A stretch of DNA of 64,000 nucleotides. Source: Bradyrhizobium acaciae. GTDB taxonomy: Bacteria; Pseudomonadota; Alphaproteobacteria; Rhizobiales; Xanthobacteraceae. Shown here one piece after another: positions 1,942 through 59,725 of the stretch (position 1 is the first letter of the stretch; the number at the start of each line of letters is the position of its first letter). The notes under the pieces are model-generated. The model had not been told where the DNA came from, searched no databases, and worked only from the letters and a program-made list of their open reading frames with translations. The position numbers and the translations under genes are program-made. The stretch covers positions 186,001 through 250,000 of the forward strand of contig NZ_JACMYK010000002.1 of NCBI RefSeq assembly GCF_020889785.1, given 5' to 3'.

Positions 1942-3633
1942 TCATGAGCGGGATCCTGATGCAGTCTGTTGTTGTGTGCCTTGAGATGTTTTCGGCTGCT
2001 GCTGGCGCAGTTCGTGACGCGACAGCTTGCCGACCGGGGTGCGCGGTAGCTCGGCGACGAACTCGACCGCCGCCGGCAATTCATGCTTGCCGACCTTGCC
2101 GGTAAGGAATGTGCGCAGCTCGTCGACCGAGAACGCCTTCTCGCCGTGGCGCAGCTTGATGAAGGCCTTGGCCGCCTCGCCGCGGTAATCGTCGGGAATG
2201 CCGATCACGATCACCTCCTGCACGGCAGGATGGGTGTAGATCGCCTGCTCGATCATCTGCGGATAGACGTTGAAGCCGCCGGAGATGATCATGTCCTTCT
2301 TGCGGTCGACCAGATAGAAATAGCCGTCGGCATCCATGTAACCGATGTCGCCGGTCAGGAAGCGGTCGCCGACGAAGGCCTCCGCGGTCTCCGCCGGCCT
2401 GTTCCAGTAGCCCTTGGTGACGTTCGGGCCGCGGATGCGGATTTCGCCGACCTCGCCGACCGGCATCACCCTGGTGGAATCCTCCAGCGACACCACGTCC
2501 ATCTCGATGCCGGGCAGCATCAGCCCGATCGAGCCCGGCTTCTCCGGGCCTTCCTTGGGATGGCCGGTGCCGGGCGAGCAGGTCTCGGTCATGCCCCAGC
2601 CGCTCTTCAGCTTCATGCCGACGCGGCGCTCGAACACCTTTGCGACCTCGACCGGCAGCGGCGCGCCGCCGGAGCCGGCGACCACCAGCGACGAGAGATC
2701 GCGCTTGTCGAGATCGGGCAGCGAGGCGATCGCGATCCACATCGTCGGCACGCCGGGAAACACCGTCGCGCGCTTGACCTCGATGTCGCGCATCACGGCC
2801 TCGACGTCGAAGCGTTGATGCAGCGAGATCAGATGGCCGCGCCGGATCGCCGATAGCAGCACGACGGTCAGCGCATAGATATGAAACAGCGGCAGCACGC
2901 AGATCACGCGCTCGACCGCGTTGCGCTCGAGCCGCGCGGGCCTGCCCCAGACGTCATAGATCGACACCGCCGCGGTGAGATTGCCGTGGCTGAGCATGGC
3001 GCCCTTGGGCAGGCCCGTGGTGCCGCCGGTATATTGCAGCAGCGCGACGTCCTCGACGTCGACCGTGGGCCACTGCGCCGGCTTGGTCGCGCCGTCGATG
3101 AACTGCTTGTGGGTGATGATCGCGGGATTGTCGGGCAGCGCGGCTTGCTGTGTGCCGGCCTTGCCCCAATTGTCGTCCTCGCAAACGATCAGGCGGTCGA
3201 GCAGACCCTTGGCGAGGAACTTCAACGCAGTCGGCAACAGCGCTGACAGATTGCTGGTGACCAGCACGCGCGCGCCGGAATCCGACAGCTTGTGCGACAG
3301 CGCGATCTCGCCGTCGAGCGGCGACAGATGCACGACGCGGGCGCCGGCCTTGAGCGCGCCGAAGAAATTGATCGGATGATCAGGCGAATTGCCGAGGAAC
3401 AGCGCGACCGAGGTGCCCTTGCCGTAGCCGGCGCGCAGGAAGGCAGCGGCTGCGGTCTCTACCAGCGACTCGAGCTCGCTGTAGCTGATCTGGCGGTCGC
3501 GGAATTCGAGCACCGGGCGGGCGCCGTATTCGGCCGCCGCGCTCGAGAGCAGGTCCGGCAGCGTGCCGCGCGTAATCTCATCGCTCCACTTCACGCCGCT
3601 CGGATAATATTGTTCGCCGGGATGACCAGTCAT
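1942..3633 (-). CDS. pimA: AMP-forming acyl-CoA ligase (PimA-like)
   Basis: A 563-residue ANL-superfamily ligase that would activate a carboxylic acid to its CoA thioester via an acyl-adenylate. Visible motifs are the P-loop YTGGTTGLPKGAML, GWGMTET, the hinge region DRKKDMIISGGFNVYP and the C-terminal catalytic-lysine motif PRTPVGKLSR. I chose the ATG at 3633 (MTGHPGEQYYPSGVKW), because the 28 codons above it run into the adjacent palindromic repeat and look non-coding. The gene lies between the FadB-type fusion and two dehydrogenases, so it supplies their substrate. A dicarboxylate or fatty acid is the likely substrate, inferred from the pim-like order. Confidence 0.87.
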   Translation of the reverse strand: MTGHPGEQYYPSGVKWSDEITRGTLPDLLSSAAAEYGARPVLEFRDRQISYSELESLVETAAAAFLRAGYGKGTSVALFLGNSPDHPINFFGALKAGARVVHLSPLDGEIALSHKLSDSGARVLVTSNLSALLPTALKFLAKGLLDRLIVCEDDNWGKAGTQQAALPDNPAIITHKQFIDGATKPAQWPTVDVEDVALLQYTGGTTGLPKGAMLSHGNLTAAVSIYDVWGRPARLERNAVERVICVLPLFHIYALTVVLLSAIRRGHLISLHQRFDVEAVMRDIEVKRATVFPGVPTMWIAIASLPDLDKRDLSSLVVAGSGGAPLPVEVAKVFERRVGMKLKSGWGMTETCSPGTGHPKEGPEKPGSIGLMLPGIEMDVVSLEDSTRVMPVGEVGEIRIRGPNVTKGYWNRPAETAEAFVGDRFLTGDIGYMDADGYFYLVDRKKDMIISGGFNVYPQMIEQAIYTHPAVQEVIVIGIPDDYRGEAAKAFIKLRHGEKAFSVDELRTFLTGKVGKHELPAAVEFVAELPRTPVGKLSRHELRQQQPKTSQGTQQQTASGSRS

Positions 3634-3671
3634 GAACGTCTTCGCTTTCGTAAGGTGAGCACCGGCGCGCG

Positions 3672-3778
3672 GGCTCCCCTCCCCCTTGCAGGGAGGGGTG
3701 GGGGGAAGGGGTACCATTCGGGCAGTCCCGATGCCGCCGCCCCTCTCCCTACCCTCCCCCGCAAGGGGGGAGGGAACC
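3672..3778. repeat. Palindromic C/G-tract intergenic repeat
   Basis: It has inverted arms rich in CCCCTCCC and GGGAGGGG. The left half is CTCCCCTCCCCCTTGCAGGG and the right half carries CCTCCCCCGCAAGGGGGG. A near copy lies at 22997-23170, so this is a second dispersed family, distinct from the GTCGTCCC family. Confidence 0.75.
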
Positions 3779-3808
3779 CTGTCACCGCCTTCGCGTCGTC
3801 GAAGCCAA

Positions 3809-5905
<2,097 letters not shown>

Positions 5906-39093: not shown

Positions 39094-39486
39094 TCAGTTC
39101 GCGGCCATGTAGATCGACAGCGCAAATCCGGTGAGGTGGTGCAGCGCCTGGTCGACCCCGATCAGGGTCCAGAACCAGGGATGCCCCGATTCCAGCGTCA
39201 CGCCGAAATGCGAAGCGCAGATGCCCTTGCAGCGATCGACGATGATGTGGATCACGAAGTCGATGAAGGCGACGTACCAGAACCGCGGCGCCACCACCAG
39301 GATCAGCGCCAGCGCGACCGCGAGATGGATCAGGCAATGCGCGAGCAGCGGCTTGGCCCAGCCGGTCCTCTGGTCCTTGCCGATCGCCATCCAGGCGTTC
39401 TGCAGCATGAAGTCAGCGATGATGTGCTTCGCCGTGAGAAGCAACATCCATCCCACCAGGGCACCAACCGACACCGACGATGACAT
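39094..39486 (-). CDS. DUF3307-like small membrane protein
   Basis: A 130-residue protein from ATG 39486 with hydrophobic segments at LVGWMLLLTAKHIIADFMLQ, LAHCLIHLAVALALILVVA and FWTLIGVDQALHHLTGFA. The conserved HxxAD and HxxxD-type histidines (KHIIADF, DFVIHIIVDR, DQALHHL) match DUF3307. Function is unknown. It is monocistronic; both flanks are non-coding. Confidence 0.75.
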   Translation of the reverse strand: MSSSVSVGALVGWMLLLTAKHIIADFMLQNAWMAIGKDQRTGWAKPLLAHCLIHLAVALALILVVAPRFWYVAFIDFVIHIIVDRCKGICASHFGVTLESGHPWFWTLIGVDQALHHLTGFALSIYMAAN

Positions 39487-39875
39487 GGCAGGAAACAACA
39501 AGCTGACGCCCTTTTACTTCGGTGAATGTGATTGCAAGAAATCCGGGTCAGGCCGTCAGCACGATTCCGAAAAACCAAGCGTGTCTCATTTATGACACCT
39601 CCGGCGGCGGAATGCACCTGCGGCTCTCTCGAAAATCACATCTGGGTTGGGGCGTCGATAGTGGCGATGGTCATGTGGCATCGCGGCGCAGACCAACCGA
39701 GATTAAGGTTACGGCCGGTGTCCGGTTTGCATTCCCTCCGGGGAGGTATATCGTCAGCAGCATAGGAAATTTTCTTTCTTTTATAGTCATTTACGGATTC
39801 ACCGGGCAGCGCGGCGCCGATTGGATTTGCGGGCGGCGGGCCGTCCCGGACGGGTGATGAGCCAGGTCATAAGCC
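39487..39875. other. Gene-free stretch
   Basis: A 389-bp gap between the divergent DUF3307-like gene and the TAXI gene. It is less GC-rich than the surroundings near 39760-39790 (GGAAATTTTCTTTCTTTTAT), where a promoter for the TAXI gene may lie. I see no convincing reading frame, repeat or RNA. Confidence 0.4.
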
Positions 39876-43505: not shown

Positions 43506-43721
43506 ATGATCGAGGAACGATTTGATTCACGTACGCTCGCTGCGATGAACTTTGCGCTCGACCAGGTCTGCGCCGACGCGCTGCATGGCGAGGAACATGA
43601 CACCCGCCGGCGCGTTGCCCGATACATCATCAAATGCGCCAAGAACGGCAGGACGACGCTTTCCGAGCTCACCGAAGCCGGGCGACAGGCGTTGGCCAAG
43701 GTCACCGCCGCAGCGGGATAG
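43506..43721 (+). CDS. Small hypothetical protein
   Basis: A 71-residue, mostly helical protein (MIEERFDSRTLAAMNFALDQ, then VARYIIKCAKNGRTTLSELT), preceded by AAGGGAGAGCTGCG as ribosome-binding region. It resembles short conserved proteins of rhizobia whose role is unknown. It probably shares a transcript with the basic protein upstream and the membrane protein downstream. Confidence 0.65.
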   Translation: MIEERFDSRTLAAMNFALDQVCADALHGEEHDTRRRVARYIIKCAKNGRTTLSELTEAGRQALAKVTAAAG

Positions 43722-43779
43722 TCAGCGCAAGCTGCCTTAGCTGCCATCTGCCCTTGGCCTTCAGCAGAGGCAGATTCAC

Positions 43780-43998
43780 ATGCGCATTGCAATCAGCATC
43801 GGCCTGCTGGTGCTTCTCGTCGCCGTCGGCGCTTACGCCTATGAAGGGCTCACTGTCGAGGCTCCGGTGCCGACCTATGGCATCGTCCTGTTCACGATCG
43901 GCATCGTGCTTCTCGCTGCGGTCTGCGCTGGTCTGATGGGTCTGCTGTTCTATTCCAGCCGCCACGGCTACGACGAGCCGCCACACATGAAGCGGTAG
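43780..43998 (+). CDS. Small two-span membrane protein
   Basis: A 72-residue protein with two hydrophobic segments, ISIGLLVLLVAVGAYAYEGL and YGIVLFTIGIVLLAAVCAGL, and a short polar tail HGYDEPPHMKR. It lies 58 bp after the preceding small gene. Its size and topology suggest an inner-membrane protein, but no family is recognised. Confidence 0.6.
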   Translation: MRIAISIGLLVLLVAVGAYAYEGLTVEAPVPTYGIVLFTIGIVLLAAVCAGLMGLLFYSSRHGYDEPPHMKR

Positions 43999-44066
43999 AG
44001 TAGTCTTGGAGAGACGCAAGCACCTTCACTCGAGCCGCCGACCCTTCGAGACGCGCTTCGCGCACC

Positions 44067-44981
44067 TCAGGTTGACGGTGATGGGTTTGCCGGCGCCCGC
44101 GCGCGAATCTCGGCGATCTTGCGCTTCAGCGCGGCCTGCCGCGGGTCGGGCATGATAGCTTCGCGGGCTTCATTGATGGCGGCGGCAAGGTCGGGAAGCT
44201 CGAGCACGCCGTCGAACGTCGGCTTGACCAGCCCGTCGATGATCACGTGCCAGTCCGCGATGCCCTGGCGATAGGGATCGCCGTAGCCCTGGATCATGGT
44301 CGCGGTCTCTACGACAGCTGGGGCTGCGCCCGGCTGCTTGGTCAAGCTGCGGTCGATCATGTGCAGCCAGCGCTCGACCCAGGCACGCTCCTTGGCATAG
44401 CGCCCCGAGAACAGCCGCCAGCGCTTCAGGCCAGCCTCGATCCTGAGCCGGCGAACGCTGAAGCGGTTGTTGGCACTGAAGCGGATCGAGACCCGGCGAC
44501 GGCGCCAGCCGAACTGATCGAGCACGCCAAGGACCGGATCGGCGACCATCGCCGGCAAGGCATCGATCAACTCGTCGAGGCGAAGCTTCTTGACGTCGTC
44601 GACCGAGCGCGCCGCGAGGCCGCCCGCCGCATGGACTTCGCCGAGCTTGAGCTGGGCGATGCGGATCGCGTCCTCATAGGCCATGCGCTCGGCCATCAGC
44701 CGCGCGATCTCGGCAAGCAGCGCATCGTCAACGCCGCGGCGGCCGACGAAGCGCTTGAGCCGGTCGATATAGAGCTGGGCGTAGCTCGTGCTCTGATAGG
44801 CGATCAATAGATCGATGGCCTCGGTGACGGTCGGCCTCAGATGGTCCGGGCAGGCGTCAGGCAGCACCGGTGGCCCCGCGTCCTCGTCGCCGATGATGTC
44901 GGCGAAGAGATAGCGAAGCGAAGCCAGCAGACTGTCGTCATCCGGCACTGCGGCGCCTCCAGAACTCGTCGCCGGGCTCAT
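44067..44981 (-). CDS. Solo DUF6537-like protein (C-terminal domain of indolepyruvate oxidoreductase beta)
   Basis: A 304-residue protein. The stretches YQSTSYAQLYIDRLKRFVGR and LMAERMAYEDAIRIAQLKLG resemble the C-terminal DUF6537 region of fused indolepyruvate ferredoxin oxidoreductase beta subunits. The catalytic pyruvate-oxidoreductase domains are absent, and no alpha subunit is nearby. The N-terminus is Ser/Ala-rich and probably disordered. Its start overlaps the stop of the cNMP-binding membrane protein by four bases, so the two are co-translated. The family match is from memory; the function as a stand-alone protein is unknown. Confidence 0.55.
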   Translation of the reverse strand: MSPATSSGGAAVPDDDSLLASLRYLFADIIGDEDAGPPVLPDACPDHLRPTVTEAIDLLIAYQSTSYAQLYIDRLKRFVGRRGVDDALLAEIARLMAERMAYEDAIRIAQLKLGEVHAAGGLAARSVDDVKKLRLDELIDALPAMVADPVLGVLDQFGWRRRRVSIRFSANNRFSVRRLRIEAGLKRWRLFSGRYAKERAWVERWLHMIDRSLTKQPGAAPAVVETATMIQGYGDPYRQGIADWHVIIDGLVKPTFDGVLELPDLAAAINEAREAIMPDPRQAALKRKIAEIRARAPANPSPST

Positions 44982-45646
44982 GCAGGTTTCGGCTCCGCCA
45001 CTTGTGGGGTGGCGTGCTGCGCGAGCCGTTGCTCGAGCGTCGCGATATTCTGGAACAGGCGGGCGCTGGACAGACGCAGGAAGTAGAAGCCGAACGCCGG
45101 ATTCTGGACGTAAAGCTGCTCGACCTGGTCATAGGTCACCGACAGCACCATGCCGGTCTCGACGCACTCCAGCGTCTGGGTTCGCGTGTTCGACGGCGAC
45201 AGCATTCCGAACTCGCCGACCAGGGCGCCGACCGGCAGCTCGATGCCTGACTCGACCAGGCGGAAGCGGCCACTGACGATGTAGAACATGCTATCGGCCT
45301 TCTCGTCCTTGTAGAACAGGACTTCGCCCGCCTTGAATTTGCGCTCCGTCGTGAACGGCCTGAGCCAATCCATCGAGAGATCGCTGTTGACCGATCGCTT
45401 CACGTTGCGGACCAGCTGCAGCATCTGGTGCAGACGATAGGTGTTCACCGGCAGCAGCACGGCATGCAGGATCAGCGTCGGGTAATTGTGGGTCGGGACC
45501 GCGGTCGCGATCAGGATGATGTTGGTCAGGATGGCGAAGACGCGGAGCGGGATCATGGTGCGCATCGACAGCGTGGCGACCACGAAGATCGATGCGAAGA
45601 AACTGCCGGCGGCGCCGGCGTGCTGCGCGAGATGTGAGGTATCCAT
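44978..45646 (-). CDS. Cyclic-nucleotide-binding membrane protein with Popeye-like layout
   Basis: A 222-residue protein from ATG 45646 (MDTSHLAQHAGAAGSFFASI). Three hydrophobic segments (around residues 12-75, including FAILTNIILIATAVPT and LILHAVLLPVNTYRL) precede a cNMP-binding barrel. The barrel shows FKAGEVLFYKDEKADSMFYI, VSGRFRLVESGIELP and a phosphate-binding cassette VGEFGML...NTRTQT that keeps the Glu and Arg. The layout of short transmembrane region plus cNMP domain is that of Popeye-like proteins. It probably binds cAMP or cGMP at the inner membrane. It forms an operon with the overlapping DUF6537-like gene. Confidence 0.78.
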   Translation of the reverse strand: MDTSHLAQHAGAAGSFFASIFVVATLSMRTMIPLRVFAILTNIILIATAVPTHNYPTLILHAVLLPVNTYRLHQMLQLVRNVKRSVNSDLSMDWLRPFTTERKFKAGEVLFYKDEKADSMFYIVSGRFRLVESGIELPVGALVGEFGMLSPSNTRTQTLECVETGMVLSVTYDQVEQLYVQNPAFGFYFLRLSSARLFQNIATLEQRLAQHATPQVAEPKPA

Positions 45647-45984
45647 CGGAAACCAGCCAATTCTCAAGAAGTGAATGAGATCGCCTTATTAGTCGCTTCA
45701 TTCCTGACCGGGTTGCCTGCCCGCACCGCATAGCCATCGCGTCGCCCAGCATCCCCGATATACGGGGAAAAAGCGACGATTTGTCTGATTTCTCACATTC
45801 GCGGGCGCAAAATCGGGCCAACAAGGTTAGGCCATTTGTCCAACATATCGGACTTTCGCCGTGATCATGCCGCAGCAAGCCTGCGCGTTGACGGCCTCAA
45901 CCGGGAGAGGCAGTTTGTGACGCACGCCCCGCCATTCGCAGGGCCTCGATTCCAGCAGTTCAGCGACAGGCAAGCTCCGTTCCG
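45647..45984. other. Divergent intergenic region of the cNMP protein and K+ channel genes
   Basis: A 338-bp gap between divergent starts, with no convincing reading frame. A small stem CCCCG-ATATA-CGGGG lies at 45753-45767. The sequence around 45770-45850 is less GC-rich and may hold both promoters, but I cannot assign -35/-10 elements with confidence. Confidence 0.4.
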
Positions 45985-47097
45985 ATGTCCAAGCCGCTCG
46001 TCCTTCCGGCCTTGACGCGCTTCGTTTCCGCCACCGCCGGCCGCAACATGACCACGGCAGCCTATGTCGCGGTCACCGTCGGTGTCGCGATGATGACGCT
46101 GCTGACGGTCGCGCCGGCCTATGACGCGGTGCCGCACTGGGTCGATGCGCTGCTCTGGGCCTGCCTTGCCTATTTCGTGTTCGAATGGCTGGTGCGGGTG
46201 CGCCATATGCGGCGGCAGGACAAGTTCTGGTTCTACCAGCTGTCCAGCGCCGGCATCGTCGATGCGATCGGCGCGCTGGCCGTGCCGCTGGCGCTGCTCG
46301 CCGGCCTCGAGCCGAAGACCGCATGGCTGCTCGGCGTGCTCTGGGTGCTGAAGGTGGTGCCGGGCATCCCCGGCCTGCGCCAGCTCCGCCGCGTGCTGGT
46401 GGTGGAGTCCGGCCCGCTGCTCAGCGTGCTCGTGATCTTCCTGATGGTGGTGTTTCTGGCCTCTGTCGCCGAATATTTCCTGGAGCGGGACGTCCAGCCG
46501 CAGACCTTCGGCAGCGTGCCGGCCGCGCTGTGGTGGGCGGTGGTGACGCTGACCACGACCGGCTATGGCGACGTGGTGCCGATCACCCCGCTCGGCCGCA
46601 TCGTCGCCGCCATGGTTATGATCTCGGGCCTCGGCGTGTTCGGGCTGTGGACCGGTATTCTGGCGACCGGCTTTGCCGCCGAAACCCGCCGCGACAATTT
46701 TCTGAGAACCTGGGAGACCGTCAGCAAGGTGCCGTTCTTCGCGCATCTCGGCCCTGCCGCGATCGCCGACGTCACCCAGGTGCTGCGGACGATGGACCTG
46801 CCGCCGCGCACCATGATCATCCGCAAGGACACCAATGGCGACTGCATGTACTTCGTCGCCGCCGGCGAGGTGGAGGTCGACCTGCCCGGACGCAAGGTGA
46901 AGCTCGGCGAGGGCGCGTTCTTCGGCGAGATGGCACTGCTCGGCAACGCCAAGCGGGGCGCCAACGTCTCGACCAGCAAGGTCACCAAGCTGTTGGTGCT
47001 TGACCTGGTCGATTTCCGCCTGTTGATGGCAAGGCATCCCGATCTCGCCGAGACCATCGACGCCGAGGCGAAGCGACGCGAACTCGAGAATCAATGA
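45985..47097 (+). CDS. Cyclic-nucleotide-gated potassium channel (MlotiK1-like)
   Basis: A 370-residue six-segment channel. S1-S4 span roughly residues 20-145, and the pore helix and selectivity filter TTTGYGD lie at 190-196, followed by S6 (GLGVFGLWTGILATGFAAET). A C-terminal cNMP-binding domain from about 251 carries FFGEMALL with E315 and R324, the residues that contact the cyclic nucleotide phosphate. S4 lacks a regular Arg series, as in MlotiK1, so gating is probably by cAMP/cGMP and not voltage. The ERDVQPQTFGSVP turret and the filter closely resemble the Mesorhizobium loti channel. It is followed 11 bp later by a crotonase gene. Confidence 0.92.
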   Translation: MSKPLVLPALTRFVSATAGRNMTTAAYVAVTVGVAMMTLLTVAPAYDAVPHWVDALLWACLAYFVFEWLVRVRHMRRQDKFWFYQLSSAGIVDAIGALAVPLALLAGLEPKTAWLLGVLWVLKVVPGIPGLRQLRRVLVVESGPLLSVLVIFLMVVFLASVAEYFLERDVQPQTFGSVPAALWWAVVTLTTTGYGDVVPITPLGRIVAAMVMISGLGVFGLWTGILATGFAAETRRDNFLRTWETVSKVPFFAHLGPAAIADVTQVLRTMDLPPRTMIIRKDTNGDCMYFVAAGEVEVDLPGRKVKLGEGAFFGEMALLGNAKRGANVSTSKVTKLLVLDLVDFRLLMARHPDLAETIDAEAKRRELENQ

Positions 47098-47108
47098 TGG
47101 AGACCGAT

Positions 47109-47894
47109 ATGGCCGAGTTGGCCGACACCGCCAGCGGACCCGTGCTCGAAATATCAGGCGCACGCGCCACGATCCGCCTCAACCGGCCGAAGCACCTCAA
47201 CCGCCTGCAGGCCGAGGACCTCGGCGAGCTCGTCAGACTGTTCGACCGGATCGAGGCGGATCCTGCGATCCGCGTGCTGGTGCTGACCGGAACCGGACGC
47301 GCGTTCTCGGCCGGCTACGACCTCAACTCGGTGGCCGAGCGCGCGGTGAGCGCCTACGAGCAGCAGAGCGCGGGCTCGGCATTCGAGGTGGTGGTCAACC
47401 GCCTCGAGGATCTGAGCGTGCCGACGATCTGCCGGCTCAATGGCGGCGTCTATGGCGGCTCGACCGACCTTGCACTCGCCTGCGACTTCCGCATCGGCGT
47501 CGATACCGCGGAAATGTTCATGCCGGCAGCGCGGCTCGGCCTGCACTATTACAAGAGCGGCATCCAGCGCTACGTCACGAGGCTCGGCGTCGATAACGCC
47601 AAGATGCTGTTCCTGACCGCGCAGAAGATCTCGGCGCCGGAGATGCTGCGGATCGGCTACCTCACCGCGATGGTATCGCTCGACCTGCTCGACGAGGAGG
47701 TCGACAAGCTTGCGACGATCCTGGCCGGCAATGCGCCGAAGGCGATGGCCGGCATGAAGCGCGCGGTCAACGAATTCGCCCGCGGCGAACTGGACGAAGC
47801 CGCCGCCGACCAGCGCCACCGCGACAGCATGCGCGGCGACGAGATCAAGGAAGGCATCAAGGCGTTCGCGGAGAAGCGGGCACCGCAGTTCTAA
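47109..47894 (+). CDS. Crotonase-family protein lacking both catalytic glutamates
   Basis: A 261-residue crotonase-fold protein. I chose ATG 47109, preceded by GGAG at 6 bp; two ATGs at 47094 and 47097 overlap the channel stop. The oxyanion-hole motifs are intact (GRAFSAGYDLNS; GGVYGGSTDLALACDFRI). The two hydratase glutamates, however, are replaced: GGSTD in place of GGGxE, and MPAARLG in place of xPExxxG. It may be an isomerase, hydrolase or decarboxylase-type member rather than an enoyl-CoA hydratase. It is the only metabolic gene next to the K+ channel and could share its transcript. Confidence 0.82.
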   Translation: MAELADTASGPVLEISGARATIRLNRPKHLNRLQAEDLGELVRLFDRIEADPAIRVLVLTGTGRAFSAGYDLNSVAERAVSAYEQQSAGSAFEVVVNRLEDLSVPTICRLNGGVYGGSTDLALACDFRIGVDTAEMFMPAARLGLHYYKSGIQRYVTRLGVDNAKMLFLTAQKISAPEMLRIGYLTAMVSLDLLDEEVDKLATILAGNAPKAMAGMKRAVNEFARGELDEAAADQRHRDSMRGDEIKEGIKAFAEKRAPQF

Positions 47895-47904
47895 GTCGGC
47901 ACTA

Positions 47905-48065
47905 TCAACGCCGTCACCCTGAGGAGCGCGGAACGCGCGTCTTGAAGGGTCGGCGGCCCGGCTGGTGGCCGATTCATCCTTCGAGGCTCGCCCAGCGGCG
48001 CAATTGCGCCGCAAGGCTTGCTCCAGCGACAAAGGCGAAGCCTTTGCGCGGGGATGACGGGGCTA
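47905..48065. repeat. Degenerate repeat remnants (CCCTGAGGAGCGCG type)
   Basis: GCCGTCACCCTGAGGAGCGC, CGCGTCTTGAAGGGTCGGCG and a later GCGCGGGGATGACGG segment resemble dispersed intergenic repeats of this replicon. A related piece (ACCCTTCGAGACGCGCTTCG) lies at 44040. It fills the 209-bp gap between the convergent crotonase and DUF6157 genes; no clean full-length palindrome is seen. Confidence 0.45.
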
Positions 48066-48103
48066 TCGGTGTGCGGGCCCGTCGTATCCGCTACGGAGTG
48101 TCG

Positions 48104-48538
48104 CTACACCCGCTTCGACCGCATCGCGCTCGTCTGCGCGATCTCAGGGTCACGGGCGAGCGCCTGATAGCGCTTGCTGTCGACGGCGTAGATCGCGATG
48201 CGGCCTTCGGCGTCGGCGTGAACGCCCCAGCCGAAGCGTTTTCCGAGCGGCGAGGCGCGCATGCAGGCCTGGCCTTTCGAGAAGAACGTCTCGCGGGCCG
48301 CACTGCGTTCCTTCTTCGTCGCCTTCGCACCGAGCGCGCGGCCGGCCGACGACGTCGCGAACACGACGTCGTCGGACGTGTATTTGTAGGGCGCGCCGGC
48401 AAGCATGGCGTATTGCAGCGCGCCTACCGTCGGCTTGCCACCATAGGGCCGCGGCTCCTCGCCGACGCGCGCGGGGCAATCCTCCGCGACACGGATGAAG
48501 GTGTTGACGACGTTGGTGGTGTAGAGCTCCTTGACCAT
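48104..48538 (-). CDS. DUF6157 family protein
   Basis: A 144-residue protein starting MVKELYTTNVVNTFIRVAED. It has the family-typical segments CPARVGEEPRP, LAGAPYKYTSDDVVFATSS, ETFFSKGQACMRASPLGKRF and GWGVHADAEGRIAIYAVDS. The biochemical function is unknown. It starts 13 bp after the GST stop on the same strand and is probably co-transcribed with that gene under the WYL-regulator palindrome. Confidence 0.82.
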   Translation of the reverse strand: MVKELYTTNVVNTFIRVAEDCPARVGEEPRPYGGKPTVGALQYAMLAGAPYKYTSDDVVFATSSAGRALGAKATKKERSAARETFFSKGQACMRASPLGKRFGWGVHADAEGRIAIYAVDSKRYQALARDPEIAQTSAMRSKRV

Positions 48539-58192: not shown

Positions 58193-58951
58193 CTAGCGCG
58201 GGGCCATGCGGATGGCGCCGTCGAGGCGGATGGTTTCGCCGTTGAGCATCGGGTTCTCGACGATGTGGACGGCGAGGTTGCCGTACTCCGAAGCGTCGCC
58301 GAGGCGGGCCGGATGCGGCACCTGGGCGCCGAGGCTCTTGCGGGCTTCTTCGTTGAGACCCATCAGCAGCGGCGTCAGGAACAGGCCGGGCGCGATGGTG
58401 TTGACGCGGATCTTGAGGCTGGCGAGGTCGCGCGCGGCCGGCAGCGTCAGGCCGACGACGCCGCCCTTCGAGGCGGAATAGGCGATCTGGCCGATCTGGC
58501 CTTCATAGGCCGCGACCGACGCAGTGTTGATCGCGACACCGCGCTCCTCGCCGATCGGGGCTTCGGTCGCCAGCCGCTCGGCGAACAGACGCAGCACGTT
58601 GAAGGTGCCGATCAGGTTGACATTGATGATGCGGACGAACTTCGCCAGCGGATAGACGCCGTCCTTGCCGACGATGCGCTGCGAGCCGCCGATGCCGGCG
58701 CAGTTCATCAGCACGCGCGCGATACCGTGCGCGGCCTCGGCCTTGGCGATCGCCGCCTTGATCGCTTCCTCGTCGGTGACGTCGGCGTGCAGGGCCACGC
58801 CCTTCACTTCGGCCGCGACCTTCTCGGCGTTTTCCTTGTTCTGGTCGATCACGCCGATCTTGGCGCCCTTGGCGGCCATGGCGCGCGCGGTTGCGGCACC
58901 GAGGCCGGAGCCACCGCCGGTGATGAGAACGGCAACGTCTTTCAACTGCAT
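58193..58951 (-). CDS. Short-chain 3-hydroxyacyl-CoA dehydrogenase (SDR, cluster 2 paralog)
   Basis: A 252-residue SDR starting MQLKDVAVLITGGGSGLGAA. It has NCAGIGGSQRIVGKDGVYPL and the catalytic NTASVAAYEGQIGQIAYSAS followed by K. It ends RLDGAIRMAPR, nearly the same as the SDR at 25107, with which it shares the HSD10-like type. It would oxidise a 3-hydroxyacyl-CoA before thiolysis. It heads the minus-strand row and lies just downstream of the TetR gene. Confidence 0.88.
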   Translation of the reverse strand: MQLKDVAVLITGGGSGLGAATARAMAAKGAKIGVIDQNKENAEKVAAEVKGVALHADVTDEEAIKAAIAKAEAAHGIARVLMNCAGIGGSQRIVGKDGVYPLAKFVRIINVNLIGTFNVLRLFAERLATEAPIGEERGVAINTASVAAYEGQIGQIAYSASKGGVVGLTLPAARDLASLKIRVNTIAPGLFLTPLLMGLNEEARKSLGAQVPHPARLGDASEYGNLAVHIVENPMLNGETIRLDGAIRMAPR

Positions 58952-58996
58952 GGGAACAACCTTTCCTTGAGCGTTTCTTCTCTAGACTTGAACTTG

Positions 58997-59725
58997 TTAT
59001 CCGGCGGCGACCGCTGCCGTTTCCTTATCGGGATTGAGCACGCCGCCGAAGATCAAGGCTTCCATGTGCTTGATGTATTCGCGGCAGACCTCGTCGGTGA
59101 CCGGACCGACGCCGACCGCGCGCGACATCGCGTGGCGGCCGAAGAACAGGTGATCGCAGGCGCCGATCAGGCTGGTGTAGAACAGCACCGGATCGATCTT
59201 GCGGAATTCGCCGGCCTTGATGCCTTCAGCGAGCAGCCGGCGGTGAAAATCCAGCAGCGGCGCGACGAAGAATTTCGAAACCTCGTTGGCCGCGGCAGGC
59301 GAACTCTCGTGCAGCAGATAGTGGATCAGCCGGTTCATATAGGGGAACTGGTGATAGGCGCGGATGATGCCGCCGATATGCAGGCGCAGCTTCGCGGACG
59401 GCGTGATCGGCTGGCCGATGAGATATTCGAGCTGCGACATCTCGGTGGCGGCGTCGCGCGCCAAGAGCGCCAGCAACAGCCCGTCCTTGTTACCGAAATG
59501 ATATTTCACCAGCGCGGCGTTGACGCCCGACTTCTGCGCGATGTCGGACAGCGAGACCTCGATCGAGGCGCGCTCGATCATCAGCTCGCTCGCTGCCACC
59601 AATAGCTTGTCGGCAGTGGCATTCTTTCCGGCCGGAAGTTTCGTCGGTACGCTGGTGTTCAACTGCGCTCTGGTCCCGCTCTGTTTTGGGGCTCGACGGT
59701 AAATCGAGGCCGCACATAAGCCCAT
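58997..59725 (-). CDS. TetR-family transcriptional regulator
   Basis: A 242-residue TetR protein. An N-terminal extension precedes the HTH region IEVSLSDIAQKSGVNAALVK followed by YHFGNKDGLLLALL. The C-terminal ligand domain includes LIGQPITPSAKLRLHIGGII and FYTSLIGACDHLFFGRHAMS. ATG 59725 gives MGLCAASIYRRAPKQ; a downstream start nearer the HTH is possible. It is divergent from the thiolase gene and precedes the SDR-crotonase-ligase row, so it probably represses both arms in response to an acyl-CoA. Confidence 0.88.
   Translation of the reverse strand: MGLCAASIYRRAPKQSGTRAQLNTSVPTKLPAGKNATADKLLVAASELMIERASIEVSLSDIAQKSGVNAALVKYHFGNKDGLLLALLARDAATEMSQLEYLIGQPITPSAKLRLHIGGIIRAYHQFPYMNRLIHYLLHESSPAAANEVSKFFVAPLLDFHRRLLAEGIKAGEFRKIDPVLFYTSLIGACDHLFFGRHAMSRAVGVGPVTDEVCREYIKHMEALIFGGVLNPDKETAAVAAG

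Follow-up and report, generated by a model that had tools for sequence, protein, structure and literature searches.

What function does a DUF6537 domain have when it stands alone, directly behind the gene of a membrane receptor? The question is raised by a stretch of 64,000 nucleotides from Bradyrhizobium acaciae (contig NZ_JACMYK010000002.1, positions 186,001 to 250,000), here termed the window, which carries two such genes in tandem on its minus strand. The upstream gene (44978..45646, an open reading frame of 222 codons) encodes a membrane cyclic-nucleotide receptor of 222 amino acids with N-terminal membrane helices followed by a canonical cyclic nucleoside monophosphate (cNMP)-binding domain, and the downstream gene (44067..44948) encodes a stand-alone DUF6537 protein of 293 amino acids counted from its likely GTG start. 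We consider it reasonably likely that the two gene products act together at the inner membrane as a single effector unit for cyclic nucleotides, with the receptor controlling the DUF6537 protein. The pair, as found in Bradyrhizobium and its relatives, seems to represent a so far undescribed branch of cyclic-nucleotide signalling in bacteria. The initial annotation had also supposed an undescribed module, and no description was found in the open-licence literature, which returned no paper on DUF6537 by name and none linking indolepyruvate oxidoreductase with cyclic nucleotides (subscription papers and preprints being outside the scope).

Pairing of the two genes across genomes

The receptor gene lies upstream of the DUF6537 gene, adjacent and on the same strand, in all 80 loci of relatives that were kept from the 132 found; these are mostly Bradyrhizobium with one Rhodopseudomonas assembly and some unplaced, and contig ends truncate a few of them. 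Within the genus the DUF6537 protein occurs in 126 of 265 genomes (E ≤1e-20), and in 122 of the 126 the receptor shares contig and strand with it, at a distance of -5 to +184 nucleotides. The remaining four consist of G062 with the genes adjacent (L245), G258 with the genes adjacent and the receptor cut by a contig end (L246), G190 with the pair split between contigs, and G172 with a DUF6537 remnant (residues 176-298) without receptor (L247). At the level of the family, the solo profile A1 finds a match (E ≤1e-45) in 100 of 248 genomes, eight of them Bradyrhizobium; 80 of the other 92 were checked for the receptor, and the 12 outside this check all have open frames of at least 506 amino acids. 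The receptor is adjacent in 71 of these 80 genomes, 24-154 nucleotides upstream of DUF6537, a gap too short to accommodate a catalytic domain; the other nine have open frames of 505-734 amino acids with no receptor alongside. A survey of the class gave matches to A1 in 34 of 337 genomes (E ≤1e-25), those listed lying, except for the window's own, in open frames of at least 488 amino acids. The pair is present in ten genera beyond Bradyrhizobium; the arrangement first noticed in the window is thus not confined to one strain.

In the reverse direction, a receptor match of at least 350 bits is found in 79 of the 248 family genomes, with DUF6537 listed beside the receptor in 78, and in the remaining genome (G390) DUF6537 adjoins the receptor and is split between frames. 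Five pair-less Bradyrhizobium loci (L238-L242) show the same coupling from the opposite side, as both genes are missing from all five, with the ECH, TAXI and DUF3307 neighbours kept in 5/5 and the potassium channel in 4/5; in pair-less G065 about 195 nucleotides separate the TAXI and channel genes. In their inheritance the two genes act as a single unit. An alternative is that their functions are separate and only their position side by side has been kept, for which it can be said that the wider neighbourhood is itself partly conserved (ECH in 71/80 loci, potassium channel in 56/80) and that a DUF3307 gene tracks nearby yet is independent of the pair. This explanation is judged unlikely, given that the pair stays intact in divergent genera with other neighbours, that the five pair-less loci lack both genes with neighbours retained, and that in the reverse survey the only departure is a frame-split DUF6537 in the same position.

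Both genes are likely under purifying selection, with a median ratio of nonsynonymous to synonymous substitution rates (dN/dS) of 0.158 for DUF6537 and 0.103 for the receptor (40 sampled close-relative pairs each). A scan of positions 43700-46100 found no promoter-like site. It gave one terminator-like site (45605-45619) against 1.5 expected, and this site falls within the receptor gene rather than between the two genes. Fusion of the two genes was considered in two genomes. The apparent single frame in B. macuxiense BR 10303 (L084) was rejected as 24 N fill the junction. In G509 (L214) receptor and DUF6537 form one frame of 547 amino acids containing no N; this was not taken for a fusion and probably reflects a small frame disturbance relative to the sister genome G312, or an assembly error.

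The DUF6537 protein and indolepyruvate oxidoreductase

The Pfam family DUF6537 (PF20169) matches residues 48-248 of the window protein with an E value of 3.6e-37 and 128.7 bits (cut-off 27). It is the sole Pfam family above cut-off in the protein, and therefore no catalytic domain is seen, as the initial annotation had stated for a solo DUF6537 protein. The best NCBIfam match is to the C-terminal half of PRK08312 (indolepyruvate oxidoreductase beta), with 108.8 bits missing the family cut-off of 348. The POR catalytic domain (PF01558) is absent from the window protein and from five distant solo proteins of other genera, and is present in five enzyme-type proteins (L227, L231, L228, L229 and a protein of 544 amino acids from the window's own genome); the label enzyme type refers to a confirmed POR domain in these five and to frame length elsewhere. 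The own genome has five DUF6537 places, three being open frames of 1162-1182 amino acids, one the frame of 544 amino acids and one the solo gene. A sequence search of solved structures with the solo protein gave nothing at E ≤1. The AlphaFold model of this protein is confident (predicted local distance difference test (pLDDT) 84.5, predicted template modelling score (pTM) 0.77) and mostly helical, and gave no Foldseek match at E ≤0.001. VIA-align reached Z scores of 10.4 at most, chiefly with designed helical proteins, and such values say little for helical models.

A tree of the domain (77 rows, midpoint root, with less than 40% column coverage in the twelve fused oxidoreductase rows displayed) places the 38 solo rows in one clade with support of 100/100 and a stem of 1.06 changes per column. 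It groups first with L227 and L231 and then with L228 and L229, all of them enzyme-type proteins from the same family. This nesting, together with the wide occurrence of the enzyme type, suggests that the direction of change was from enzyme to solo, and the solo DUF6537 protein appears to be derived from the C-terminal region of the beta subunit in an indolepyruvate oxidoreductase. The solo and enzyme groups have 33 residues in common at ≥80%. Five further residues, Arg-105, Pro-121, Lys-219, Thr-224 and Gly-270 (R105, P121, K219, T224 and G270, L066 numbering), are invariant in the 25 enzyme-type rows and mostly replaced in the 38 solo rows.

Such an origin raises the alternative that the solo protein still serves the enzyme, as a regulatory or decoy component of indolepyruvate oxidoreductases that the membrane receptor switches on or off via cAMP. 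DUF6537 is otherwise seen in indolepyruvate oxidoreductases, the solo clade is located beside the beta subunits of the family with the 33 shared residues, and a DUF6537 search of 40 pair genomes gave at least one further match in 37, all of which would suit an oxidoreductase subunit. The loss of enzyme-invariant residues in the solo rows speaks against it, and it is weakened by the other three pair genomes, G421, G435 and G496 (99, 99 and 100% complete), which have the solo copy as their only DUF6537. A POR-domain search found no match in these three, the comparison genomes G000, G307 and G374 giving five, one and four matches. The pair therefore occurs without any POR domain in three near-complete genomes and is not an oxidoreductase part; a role as oxidoreductase subunit is regarded as highly improbable. 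The window protein is thus like PRK08312 in its homologous DUF6537 domain (PF20169 lying in the C-terminal half of that family) and in the position of the solo clade alongside, and unlike it in having no POR domain, in scoring below the family cut-off, in its occurrence in POR-free genomes and in its pairing with a membrane receptor.

On plasmids, no solo DUF6537 copy is found among the matches listed; the 29 matching plasmid records all fall below 60% identity, and those listed (ten) carry either an annotation as enzyme beta subunit or no named feature. A separate observation concerns contig C29 of the own genome (G000), where an enzyme-type beta subunit (47506-48141, plus strand) lies about 10 kb from a receptor paralogue (58585-59190, minus strand); this closeness is probably due to chance.

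Receptor, cyclase and the proposed signalling unit

The cNMP_binding family (PF00027) matches residues 101-181 of the receptor (E 7.7e-12), so that the cNMP-binding membrane protein annotated beside the DUF6537 gene is borne out. The phosphate-binding cassette, GEFGMLSPSNTRT, spans residues 144-156 and follows the pattern GE(F/L)GMLSPSNxRT, with Gly-144, Glu-145, Arg-155 and Thr-156 (G144, E145, R155 and T156) kept in 37 of 37 sequences. Canonical cNMP cassettes conform to the rule G-E ... R-T. Judged by its sequence the domain is a canonical cNMP-binding domain with an intact phosphate-binding cassette, and is predicted to bind ligand. Hydropathy gives two clear hydrophobic segments (10-28 and 32-50) with a third under the threshold used, and the AlphaFold model of a homologue has three N-terminal helices and a helix of 33 residues after the cNMP domain. 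The closest solved structures by sequence and fold are mostly CAP/CRP. The receptor thus has the canonical cassette of CRP-type and CNG-type domains and CAP/CRP as best structure matches, and differs from these proteins in that no DNA-binding domain and no ion-channel pore were found by Pfam. It has also been termed Popeye-like, which holds for the topology, as in POPDC proteins N-terminal membrane helices (three in the model here) precede the cyclic-nucleotide-binding domain. Beyond topology the term is unsupported because the cassette is the canonical GE...RT in place of DSPE and FQVT, the POPDC motifs given in PMC6726836, and because there is no Pfam Popeye match at E ≤1.

In three genera (g49, g41 and g69) a gene for a class III cyclase with a CHASE2 sensor is placed upstream of the pair and in the same orientation. 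This holds for 19 of 20 genomes (15/16 in g49 with G496 as the exception, 2/2 in g41 and 2/2 in g69). The cyclase gene abuts the receptor gene in g69; in g41 ~3.8 kb lie between the two, and ~2.8 kb between the receptor and a metallo-β-lactamase (MBL)-fold gene. The g69 cyclase is ~38% identical to the g49/g41 cyclase, and therefore the association with the pair exists with two cyclase lineages. With the g49 cyclase as query (E ≤1e-60) a match was obtained in 15 of 15 pair genomes tested and none in pair-less G311; eleven of the matches have identities of 61-100% (one being the query's own genome) and four of 39-42%, which is the level of paralogues. The substrate residues of the cyclase are lysine and serine/threonine, which we take to be the arrangement of adenylate cyclases and to point to cAMP. 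In a different arrangement at L275 (G302), a CHASE2 cyclase gene (1955-4237, plus strand) is convergent with a receptor homologue (4381-5154, minus strand) without DUF6537, which suggests that DUF6537 is not required for the association of cyclase and receptor.

A cyclase gene near a membrane cNMP-binding protein, seen here in three genera, is also the layout of Pycsar, for which PMC11224242 describes a class III PycC cyclase and a PycTM membrane receptor. The pair could accordingly be imagined as a Pycsar-like defence module, the cyclase and a membrane-damaging effector acting on phage infection with DUF6537 as the restraint. Among the PADLOC models, those for PycC match the catalytic domain of the cyclase (best 1.2e-27) and those for PycTIR/effectors match the cNMP part of the receptor. 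This layout differs from Pycsar in the CHASE2 sensor of the cyclases, in the extra DUF6537 partner and in the lack of a PycTM-named model among the PADLOC matches of the receptor, the presence of such a model in PADLOC not having been checked. The pair is moreover located in a partly conserved neighbourhood, is likely under purifying selection and has the distant plasmid matches described above. A defence function is considered very unlikely.

The preferred reading, a receptor-controlled effector unit, would operate as follows. The CHASE2 membrane cyclase, whose gene is near the pair in some genera and farther off in the Bradyrhizobium genomes checked, would make cAMP, possibly cGMP, upon an extracytoplasmic signal. 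The membrane receptor would bind the cyclic nucleotide through its canonical cNMP domain, and its long C-terminal helix may pass the change to the DUF6537 protein. The latter would be a soluble all-helical docking domain, formerly part of an enzyme and no longer working with the oxidoreductase, which would then be released or engaged and act on a further target. Whether these components make up a complete and undescribed signalling branch, with a CHASE2 sensor cyclase, a three-helix membrane receptor and a once-taken oxidoreductase domain as ligand-dependent receptor-binding effector, is put forward more tentatively, as a possibility of some substance. Research on cAMP in bacteria has its focus on transcription factors of the CRP type. 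If the reading is correct, a membrane receptor with a repurposed enzyme domain as constant partner would represent a different type of output for cAMP signalling, and DUF6537 would gain a function outside the indolepyruvate oxidoreductases that is testable in enzyme-free genomes.

Several results weigh against an effector unit of this kind. Close neighbours staying together can also reflect inherited gene order, although the joint absence of the two genes argues against inherited order alone. In Bradyrhizobium G004, G015 and G141 a distance of ~47-55 kb separates the pair from the closest cyclase relative. The tested cyclase lineages are not represented in the flanking sequence (≤6 kb on each side) of the 80 kept loci, nor close to the pair in g30, g44, g50, g52, g64, g67 and g70 (one genome per genus). 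The co-occurrence with the cyclase has no proper control, pair-less Bradyrhizobium being outside the cyclase search. Receptor paralogues are widespread (~45-52% identical where listed), with a weaker match in 138 of the 139 genus genomes that have no listed orthologue. No DUF6537 is present at the eight paralogue loci read (L243, L244, L276-L280 and L282 of the own genome), and the weaker receptor homologue beside the cyclase in G302 (g39, L275; 307 bits) also has none; receptors of this kind can therefore exist without DUF6537. The AlphaFold model of the joined chains (pLDDT 79.5, pTM 0.58), built from an alignment of 54 rows of which 12 are pairs, is weak in the receptor part and has no inter-chain error, so that its interface is not judgeable. 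Contact between the two proteins, the ligand and the target are therefore what we infer from the pairing and the domains, and the direction of signalling is proposed in the same sense.

Gene start and neighbouring genes

Taking the ATG at 44981 as start gives a mechanical DUF6537 open reading frame of 304 codons (44067-44981, minus strand), and it is because of this choice of the first ATG that a four-base ATGA overlap with the receptor gene arises. When the start is instead defined as the last start codon 12-27 nucleotides ahead of the conserved N-terminal motif (79 of 80 loci used), it is GTG in 67, ATG in seven and TTG in five of the 79 loci. In the window this rule gives the GTG at 44948, 29 nucleotides past the receptor stop and behind a Shine-Dalgarno-like GGAGG (44956..44960, minus strand). 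No in-frame start codon is present ≤75 nucleotides upstream of the rule-derived start in 42/79 loci, a purine-rich Shine-Dalgarno-like word precedes the start in 56/79 (a raw count without chance control), and in B. viridifuturi (L077) an in-frame stop codon lies between the ATG and the GTG. The overlap reported in the initial annotation exists as a property of the open reading frames but is probably a start-codon artefact, with the GTG at 44948 as the likely start.

The pair is flanked on one side by a divergent gene (45985..47097, plus strand) for a potassium-channel-like protein with its own cNMP-binding domain, which belongs to the context only. It was rejected as an obligate member because, beside the pair in 56/80 loci as noted, it is kept in 4/5 pair-less loci. 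Downstream of the pair, likewise as context, is the gene of a DUF3307 membrane protein (39094..39501, minus strand). DUF3307 is directly downstream of the pair in 9/12 other-genus loci and was found in 67/92 loci, always downstream on the same strand; seven of the other 25 had little room. It was rejected as an obligate third member and is independent of the pair, because all 60 Bradyrhizobium genomes tested carry it with or without the pair, 40 of them outside the pair carriers.

An MBL-fold gene is located upstream of the receptor in 16/16 g49 loci (for example L218, 5405-6247, minus strand) and also in g41. In g49 it is usually close to the receptor, with distances of ~1.9 kb in G406 and ~3.7 kb in G421. 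The g49 protein scores 53.1 of 400 bits with a cyclic-nucleotide phosphodiesterase model, which is below cut-off, and higher with ribonuclease Z models, also below cut-off; this MBL-fold hydrolase could act as an off-switch of the signal.
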